64,000 bases of DNA from the NCBI GenBank assembly GCA_903822185.1, contig CAIJOA010000017.1, forward strand, positions 124,001-188,000, written 5' to 3'. A program made the translations under genes and the position numbers. Positions 7,545 to 11,307 of the stretch are shown one piece after another (position 1 is the stretch's first letter; every line of letters begins with the position of its first letter). Source of the stretch: an uncultured Rhodospirillales bacterium. Lineage in GTDB: Bacteria > Pseudomonadota > Alphaproteobacteria > ATCC43930 > CGMCC-115725. The notes under the pieces were generated by a model. That model had not been told where the DNA came from, did not search any database, and was given only the letters and a program-made list of their open reading frames with translations.

Positions 7545-10238
<2,694 letters not shown>

Positions 10239-10439
10239 AATTATTCTCCTTTGGCGCGAGGGCTTTGATCTTGCTGCTACCCCCTTTGGCGAGGCAGATC
10301 AAGCGCGGCACGGCCGCGTCGCAACGTCACAAAGGAAGCTTTGGAAAAAGCCTGCATTAACAATAATTTAGATGGCGAGAAATATTCGCGAAAAATGCAA
10401 ATACCACAATTCCGCCACGATTCCATCGCATCGCCGTCT

Positions 10440-10568
10440 CAAAGTAGGTGTTTCCTACGTGTCAGGCGAGAGAGGCCTATGGCCTTAATCTCCCTCTAAG
10501 TAGCGATCACTCCCCCCGATCGCTTCTACGCGGCCTCGGTTCCCCCGACCGAGGCCGCCTTTCTTTTT
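10440..10568 (+). ncRNA. Candidate small RNA with C-rich hairpin loops
   Basis: This lies in the 410-base gap between divergent acnA and ccmA. Four successive hairpins are visible: GTAGG/CCTAC at 10444-10458, AGGCC/GGCCT at 10473-10485, GCGATC/GATCGC at 10503-10523 with loop ACTCCCCCC, and a perfect 11-bp stem GCGGCCTCGGT/ACCGAGGCCGC at 10530-10558 with loop TCCCCCG. The last is followed by CTTTCTTTTT, an excellent terminator. No protein gene upstream on this strand needs that terminator. C-rich loops resemble those of alphaproteobacterial RNAs that pair with Shine-Dalgarno sequences. The 5' end is uncertain. Between 10239 and 10439 only the acnA leader and an AT-rich patch near 10345-10400 are seen. 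Confidence 0.5.
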
Positions 10569-10647
10569 GGGCTTCGTTGGGCGGGCGCTTTCCTTGGCGC
10601 AACGGAAGCGGCACTATCCTCCCGCCTTTCCCAATACCGAGCCCGCC

Positions 10648-11307
10648 TTGCCCCTATCCGCCTTTTCAGCCGCGCCATTTGCCGGAGCCGGGCTTGCTTG
10701 CCGCCGGGGCGAACGGCGCGTTTTCGCAGGGCTGAATTTCCACTTACCGCCTGGCGGAGCGTTGGTTCTGGCCGGCCCGAACGGCAGCGGTAAATCGAGC
10801 CTGTTGCGGGTTTTGGCCGGGCTAACACCACCCGAAGCCGGGAAATTGACCTGGAACGGTGCCGATATCACCGAAGATCGAGGCGAACATCACCGCCGCT
10901 TGCACTTCGTCGGCCATAGCGACGCGCTGAAGCCGGTGCTGTCGGTCGGCGAAATGGTGGGGTTTTGGGCCGGGATGCACGGTCAAACCGTCGATATCCA
11001 TGCGATTTTGGGCAAATTCGGGCTCGAAAAGGCCGTCAAGCTGCCCTGTCGCTATCTTTCTGCAGGTCAAAAGCGCCGTTTGGCCCTATTACGGCTGATT
11101 TCGAGCCCCGCACCGCTGTGGTTGCTCGATGAACCGCTGACCAGCCTCGATACCGAGGCAACGGAGCAACTGCTTGCCGCCATTGCCGCCCATCGCGCCG
11201 AAGGCGGCAGTATCGTCCTCTCGACCCATGCGCCGGTTGAACTACCCGGTGCCGTCCGCCTTTCCTTGGCCGATTTCCGACCCGCGCGCCTGGTGATCGA
11301 GGCATGA
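10648..11307 (+). CDS. ccmA: Heme exporter ATPase CcmA
   Basis: The ABC ATPase of the CcmABCD complex, which releases holo-CcmE during c-type cytochrome maturation. The Walker A motif is GPNGSGKSS (about residues 43-51), the signature LSAGQKRR and Walker B PLWLLDEP, followed by STHAPVEL as the switch region. The frame is open from 10567. TTG 10648 gives 219 residues, close to the family length, and is taken as the start, but it is uncertain because no strong ribosome site is present. The gene opens the ccm operon and overlaps ccmB by 4 bases. Confidence 0.92.
   Translation: MPLSAFSAAPFAGAGLACRRGERRVFAGLNFHLPPGGALVLAGPNGSGKSSLLRVLAGLTPPEAGKLTWNGADITEDRGEHHRRLHFVGHSDALKPVLSVGEMVGFWAGMHGQTVDIHAILGKFGLEKAVKLPCRYLSAGQKRRLALLRLISSPAPLWLLDEPLTSLDTEATEQLLAAIAAHRAEGGSIVLSTHAPVELPGAVRLSLADFRPARLVIEA

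Follow-up and report, generated by a model that had tools for sequence, protein, structure and literature searches.

A candidate small RNA gene with C-rich hairpin loops upstream of ccmA in an uncultured Rhodospirillales bacterium

What lies between the divergent genes acnA and ccmA in this uncultured Rhodospirillales bacterium, and what could it do? The minus-strand gene acnA and the plus-strand gene ccmA are both carried by the window, meaning the whole 64,000-nucleotide stretch of DNA analysed here, with ccmB and ccmC after ccmA. The gap between acnA and ccmA holds positions 10440 to 10568, for which the original prediction described four hairpins, two of them with C-rich loops, ending in a strong terminator. 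Hairpin coordinates and loops were confirmed, as was the location between divergent genes; the terminator has a stem of 12 pairs and a tail with T at 8 of 10 positions. Alignment gaps of 1 to 2 nt among close relatives speak against a reading frame in the element. The features of the region are as follows.

7545..10238, minus strand: acnA, aconitate hydratase (TIGR01341); start not certain
10404..10447, plus strand: conserved upstream element, presumed activator site, with four 11-bp units (10404-10414, 10415-10425, 10426-10436 and 10437-10447)
10445..10459, plus strand: first hairpin of the original prediction, probably promoter DNA and not RNA; overlaps the predicted −10
10452..10457, plus strand: predicted −10, TTCCTA; two T positions have 1.0 and 1.2 bits in the ungapped alignment
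10464..10568, plus strand: predicted small RNA of ∼105 nt, from the fold and the covariation of two 3′ hairpins; both ends predicted
10464..10495, plus strand: predicted 5′ hairpin SL-A, from the fold
10499..10527, plus strand: hairpin SL-B, whose inner stem pairs 10502-10508 to 10518-10524 and whose loop, ACUCCCCCC, occupies 10509-10517
10530..10558, plus strand: terminator hairpin SL-T, loop CCCCC at 10542-10546
10559..10568, plus strand: U-rich terminator tail
10612..10619, plus strand: weak candidate −10 of ccmA, placed by alignment only, 3′ of the terminator
10648..11307, plus strand: ccmA, heme exporter ATPase (TIGR01189); start not certain, placed by eye

The region from 10400 to 10600 folded at −83.4 kcal/mol (z −5.19), and the refined interval 10464-10568 gave a fold of −50.9 (z −6.20); in each case, 0 of 200 shuffles were as low. 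Loops of the predicted three-hairpin RNA were UAU, ACUCCCCCC and CCCCC, the last two with mean unpaired probabilities of 1.00 and 0.98, respectively. The SL-B loop core UCCCCCC was identical in the four closest members. C-rich hairpin loops are rare in the own genome: across 464 kb, a C run of at least 4 occupied the loop of 2 of 26 T-tailed hairpins versus 9 of 1976 tail-less hairpins, one of the two T-tailed cases being the acnA-ccmA element itself and the other lying in a stretch fetched for a model match.

The sister species shared 82% identity over most of the region, and plain DNA similarity identified a match in only 2 of 39 family genomes, own included, so a covariance model was needed. 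Model R1 was built on the two 3′ hairpins of four sequences, among which three pairs showed changes in both partners. Within the order, 34 of 43 genomes gave an R1 match at E ≤ 0.01, a count that includes weak matches; R1 E values are rough, and the weaker matches are doubtful. Out of 37 model matches, 22 sequences (window included) were kept by ccmA linkage or a common 5′ sequence, and the covariation set is therefore partly context-chosen. In their model-fitted alignment, both partners had changed in 13 of 19 base pairs, and 94.5% of cells were still paired. None of 500 shuffles gave covariation as high, and slid controls were much lower. Genera g1, g6, g8 and g10 have the C-run both in SL-B and in the loop of the terminator. 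Nine g7/g2 members (L120-L124, L126, L128, L131 and L137) carried it in an invariant hairpin, GGUUUGUCCCCCAAACC, further 5′ than the two modelled hairpins, and also, except for L126, in the terminator loop. C-run loops were thus kept across genera while their position shifted. In the own genome, nine R1 matches were identified at E ≤ 10, one of them strong. An element on own contig C46:47136-47205 (L139; terminator L165:7165-7196) scored 21.0 bits with R1 and has a CCCCCC terminator loop with further C-runs upstream; by eye, its terminator is similar to that of L135 from another genus, and it is possibly a second C-loop small RNA.

Linkage to ccmA was examined in the order and across the class. 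Of the 30 R1 loci fetched in the order, 20 had ccmA downstream on the same strand; acnA was also within the fetched flank in six of these and absent from it in 14. A class-wide search with model R2 identified a match in 49 of 385 genomes at E ≤ 0.001. Among 28 new class-level loci, 14 were upstream of ccmA on the same strand, drawn from one further family of the order and from nine families beyond it, and the other 14, which were not beside ccmA, may be chance matches. By R2 at E ≤ 0.001, the RNA was present upstream in just 7 of the 30 ccmA loci sampled across the class, the own locus among them, and its distribution is therefore patchy. Gaps between acnA and ccmA numbered 32 among 80 acnA loci and yielded an R2 match in two at E ≤ 0.1, to which R1 adds L014. 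The expectation that the structure would be kept in orthologous acnA-ccmA gaps therefore held in some lineages but not as a rule; judged by its relatives, the predicted RNA is more closely associated with ccmA than with acnA and is no general property of acnA-ccmA gaps. Four Devosia acnA-ccmA gaps (L030, L031, L037 and L049), where R2 finds no small RNA, have a common TGGAATGANTCCA stretch, which is perhaps a regulator site of acnA. In L175, L179, L184, L188 and L189, ACCUCCCC, ACCUCC or ACUUCCCC was observed 5′ of the modelled hairpins, a stretch closer to the classical anti-Shine-Dalgarno (anti-SD) motif than that of the window.

Upstream of the hairpins, an alignment of 22 loci, the anchors of some of which were set by eye, revealed four 11-bp units followed by an AT-rich hexamer; when ungapped, it had a C at −31, −20, −9 and +2, each of 1.5 bits. 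Promoter spacing predicts an RNA start near 10464, which is also where the predicted 5′ hairpin begins. With this start, the hairpin at 10445-10459 overlaps the −10 and falls outside the RNA, and it also seems not to be conserved in the sister species (L084/L109). The RNA thus most likely has three hairpins rather than the four first proposed. A matrix made without the window's genus ranked 10400-10457 first in 464 kb on both strands, scoring 26.2 versus 13.2 for the next unrelated site. With the upstream-part matrix, the element was the best of ∼6100 positions in 13 of the 14 class-level loci tested, including L179 (not ccmA-linked) and L171 (own order) and leaving out L193 as too short. Of the 12 loci that were ccmA-linked and outside the order, it ranked first in 11 and second in L175; in L167, the best matrix site differs from the site picked by eye. 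An element pattern, written after 7 of its 10 ccmA-linked loci were known, had 23 matches with at most one mismatch in 385 genomes, compared with 2 for the reversed control. Ten of the 23, including all three exact matches, were upstream of ccmA and 13 were elsewhere; three of the ten (L338, L340 and L345) were new to the set. Among 29 other class-level ccmA loci, the upstream element was the best site in six, two with low scores. For the lag-11 self-match, z was 4.5 within the own order, 2.6 when each genus contributed a single locus and 1.0 in other orders, and the 11-bp period was without significance outside the own order.

The geometry of the upstream element appears OmpR-family-like. Passages of PMC9275681 give the CenR motif as TGA-N8-TGA, co-directional with transcription. 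Compared by eye, the spacing is similar, but the transcribed strand shows the repeats as TCA/CCA/TCG, which would make a CenR motif reversed and degenerate here; a CenR-like site in this promoter is possible. In L345, upstream of ccmA, a CCUA-CCCCCC-UAGG hairpin could be seen by eye after the upstream element, at a locus where R2 did not reach E 1, and the RNA family may on this observation be wider than R2 detects.

Covariation, the conserved upstream element, the terminator and synteny bear out the small RNA gene of the original prediction, and at the level of sequence comparison we regard such a gene as highly probable. The same evidence has to be weighed against three other explanations. 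A strong terminator with chance hairpins, serving only to end stray transcription, would fit the finding that terminator-like sites as a class were not above shuffles in 10000-11000 (2 found, 1.7 expected); given the covariation, the kept loops and an upstream element common to several families, we consider it very improbable. The element could instead act in cis as a 5′ leader for the ccm operon, with the terminator as an attenuator that is read through into ccmA under some signal. Its position upstream on the ccmA strand and its linkage to ccmA (20/30 loci in the order and 14/28 in the class) agree with this, but the distance to ccmA is variable, reaching ∼1 kb in L124, and the terminator dominates the predicted ensemble. 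Furthermore, 10 of the 19 tested loci show a −10-like pattern between the terminator and ccmA, 14 to 17 nt 5′ of the ccmA start. The clades closest to the window account for all of these (10 of 12 loci, versus 0 of 7 in other clades); the count has no chance control and does not include the window itself. The pattern weakly suggests that ccmA may have its own near-leaderless promoter, and to that extent speaks against a leader, which we judge unlikely overall.

Another explanation places the function in the loops without any mRNA pairing: the C-rich loops would be protein-binding sites, and the RNA would sequester an RNA-binding protein. Protein-sequestering RNAs are known to have repeated alike loops, and by analogy the alike loops here could serve the same end; C-runs were also kept in two loops despite stem changes and, between genera, a change of the hairpin bearing them. 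However, complements of the loops at the start codons of transport genes favor mRNA pairing, and sequestration seems to us decidedly unlikely. The reading preferred here is an independent, trans-acting small RNA gene, and the question becomes which mRNAs it might pair with.

Two features of the anti-SD class could be recognized: a C-rich motif that is conserved, unpaired and able to pair with SD regions by complementarity and, by comparison only, a putative own promoter with an intrinsic terminator. The own genome also encodes Hfq. The exact 9-mer TCGGGGGGA, the complement of loop UCCCCCCGA, occurred 20 times in the own genome versus 3 times for the reversed control. Without the RNA gene itself, 10 of 19 sites lay 2 to 9 nt 5′ of a start codon; rows dropped were L199, whose start codon is inside a longer open frame, and eight sites with short frames or lacking a start codon at the expected place, and two sites matching only the 8-mer were left out of the count. 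Six of these ten candidate targets were transport genes by Pfam: three for binding proteins of the NMT1 type, two for MFS transporters and one for a DUF3311 protein, DUF3311 being counted because we take it to have a role in transport. The other four were genes for an FAA hydrolase, a GST and a Kelch protein and one without a Pfam match. In the sister species, where L304, L306, L307, L308, L310 and L315 were dropped for their short frames, five of seven plausible starts belonged to NMT1 or DctP binding proteins, giving 11 transport genes among 17 when pooled with the own genome.

Genes with canonical SDs served as controls, and 3 of 20 were transport genes; the 20 were a random draw from 45 candidates, and two of the three transport genes share one 20-kb stretch. 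In a target comparison that was chosen after looking and rests on 17 genes and on our choice of real starts, one-sided Fisher tests against 3/20 gave p = 0.018 for 6/10 and p = 0.0025 for 11/17. The corresponding values without DUF3311 were p = 0.056 (5/10) and p = 0.0069 (10/17); including L306 (94 amino acids, no Pfam match) would change the pooled count to 11/18 (p = 0.0041). Search patterns also differ, an 8-mer plus ATG having been used for the sister species and genus g3 and a 9-mer with any start codon for the own genome. GGGGGGA could also be no more than the ordinary SD of these transport genes. In genus g3 (G010 and G011; R2 without a match at E ≤ 0.001), none of ten plausible-start site genes was a transporter by Pfam, 8 of 18 loci having been dropped for short frames; g3 is not a clean control, since five of the ten genes lack a Pfam match and a different C6-loop terminator (L133) is present in G011.

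Before ATG, each of the two types of loop complement was more frequent than its reversed control in 38 of the 39 family genomes, the patterns in excess being the G-rich stretches TCGGGGGG and TTGGGGGA 2 to 10 nt before ATG. Because this excess extends to clades of either loop type, G-rich SDs are general, and loop-target co-evolution was not seen. In a crude test of loop/target specificity across the 39 family genomes, no difference between clades of the two loop types could be identified. The proposal that the loops act as anti-SD sequences thus draws support from the conserved unpaired C-runs and their complements at transport gene starts, but none from cross-clade specificity.

Taken as a mechanism, a response regulator would bind the 11-bp repeats and transcription would begin near 10464. 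The unpaired loops ACUCCCCCC and CCCCC would then pair, probably aided by Hfq, with G-rich SD regions and block the translation of the target mRNAs, most of which would encode periplasmic binding proteins or other transporters. Comparison established, for this predicted RNA, a conserved upstream element, two covarying 3′ hairpins, C-rich loops and the terminator, along with ccmA linkage in several families of the Alphaproteobacteria. The whole reading, an independent trans-acting small RNA gene of ∼105 nt with anti-SD action on transporter mRNAs, is in our estimation probable from the sequence evidence. Anti-SD repression of transport genes, taken by itself, is a plausible, reasoned guess at mechanism to which we give slightly better than even chances. 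A broader proposal would have an undescribed family spread over many families of the Alphaproteobacteria, kept beside ccmA and controlled by one dedicated response regulator through the 11-bp array, that ties the repression of nutrient uptake on a global scale to respiratory state or to the maturation of cytochrome c, with a constant principle even as the C-run loop shifts between hairpins across genera. This we put forward tentatively and hold to be rather doubtful. In the literature searched, alphaproteobacterial small RNAs came mainly from Rhizobiales, Caulobacter and Rhodobacter. For other lineages, a conserved RNA that has a fixed neighbor, a sharply defined upstream element and a set of candidate targets would offer a post-transcriptional regulator of nutrient uptake that can be put to the test, and its upstream element could point to the protein that controls it.

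How does the predicted RNA compare with known systems? The original prediction assigned it to no family, in agreement with a covariance search using Rfam 15 (4227 models), which gave no match at the gathering cut-off in the window, nor any in 39 other loci, a set in which L125, L129, L135 and L139 are doubtful members and L035 had no model match. CC1840, NsiR4, ar7 and Hrs10 appeared at a lax Rfam threshold, all far under their cut-offs. Among the papers listed in a literature search of open-access main texts, none dealt with an RNA at acnA-ccmA or 5′ of ccmA. For the comparisons below, NfeR1 is placed in family alpha-r14, and the CcsR/cuckoo RNAs and models SmelA075 and SmelA099 are presumed to form one group.

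In the passages of PMC8844928 that describe them, AbcR1 and AbcR2 (alpha-r15) of Sinorhizobium resemble what is predicted for the acnA-ccmA RNA: they are short, act in trans and use C-rich anti-SD motifs to silence mRNAs for transport and metabolism. The anti-SD motifs of AbcR1/AbcR2 and NfeR1 act on mRNAs of periplasmic binding proteins. However, AbcR1/AbcR2 are characterized by motifs aSD1 (CUCCUCCC) and aSD2 (UUCCCCUC), an lsrB neighborhood and control by LsrB and RpoH1, whereas neither 8-mer was present in 10464-10568 and the AbcR neighbors were absent from the locus. NfeR1 is likewise described in parts of PMC8844928 as having several anti-SD motifs in redundant use and, as its two validated targets, periplasmic binding proteins; its three motifs are identical, while the acnA-ccmA RNA has two different C-run loops and no Rfam match. 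The CcsR/cuckoo group likewise has several hairpins in a row, all with variable stems and C-rich anti-SD loops, according to sections of PMC3927594. Its loops carry CCUCCUCCC, unlike the C-run loops here; this motif was absent from the hairpin loops, and no CCUCC was identified in 10464-10568. CcsR has a DUF1127 neighbor and an RpoHI/RpoHII promoter in passages of PMC10253847; co-transcription with a DUF1127 gene was not observed here, the neighbors being acnA and ccmA, then ccmB and ccmC.

GsrN of Caulobacter and PmaR of Agrobacterium have a C-rich loop as their target-pairing part, that of GsrN pairing with a G-tract in the katG leader, as given in portions of PMC5869019 and PMC6234868. They differ in sequence and place, and PmaR, in the portion of its own paper that bears on this, mostly activates and works without an anti-SD. 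GsrN is further marked by a sigma-EcfG promoter and a location near genes of the general stress response. SisA-D (alpha-R8) of Caulobacter are, in extracts from PMC12559287, similar in being a widespread alphaproteobacterial RNA with one linked neighbor gene and a C-rich pairing core. Their core UUUCCUCCCU is single-stranded and the neighbor is an FGase gene in those extracts; neither the core nor an FGase neighbor was found at the acnA-ccmA locus. Rfam models CC1840 (RF01521) and ar7 (RF02342) share hairpins with C-rich loops and a terminator and could be weakly aligned, scoring 20.8 and 13.7 bits where the cut-offs are 50 and 60, respectively. By the features tested, the predicted acnA-ccmA RNA belongs to none of the families compared, and the best reading is a new family within the known kind of trans-acting small RNAs with C-rich loops.
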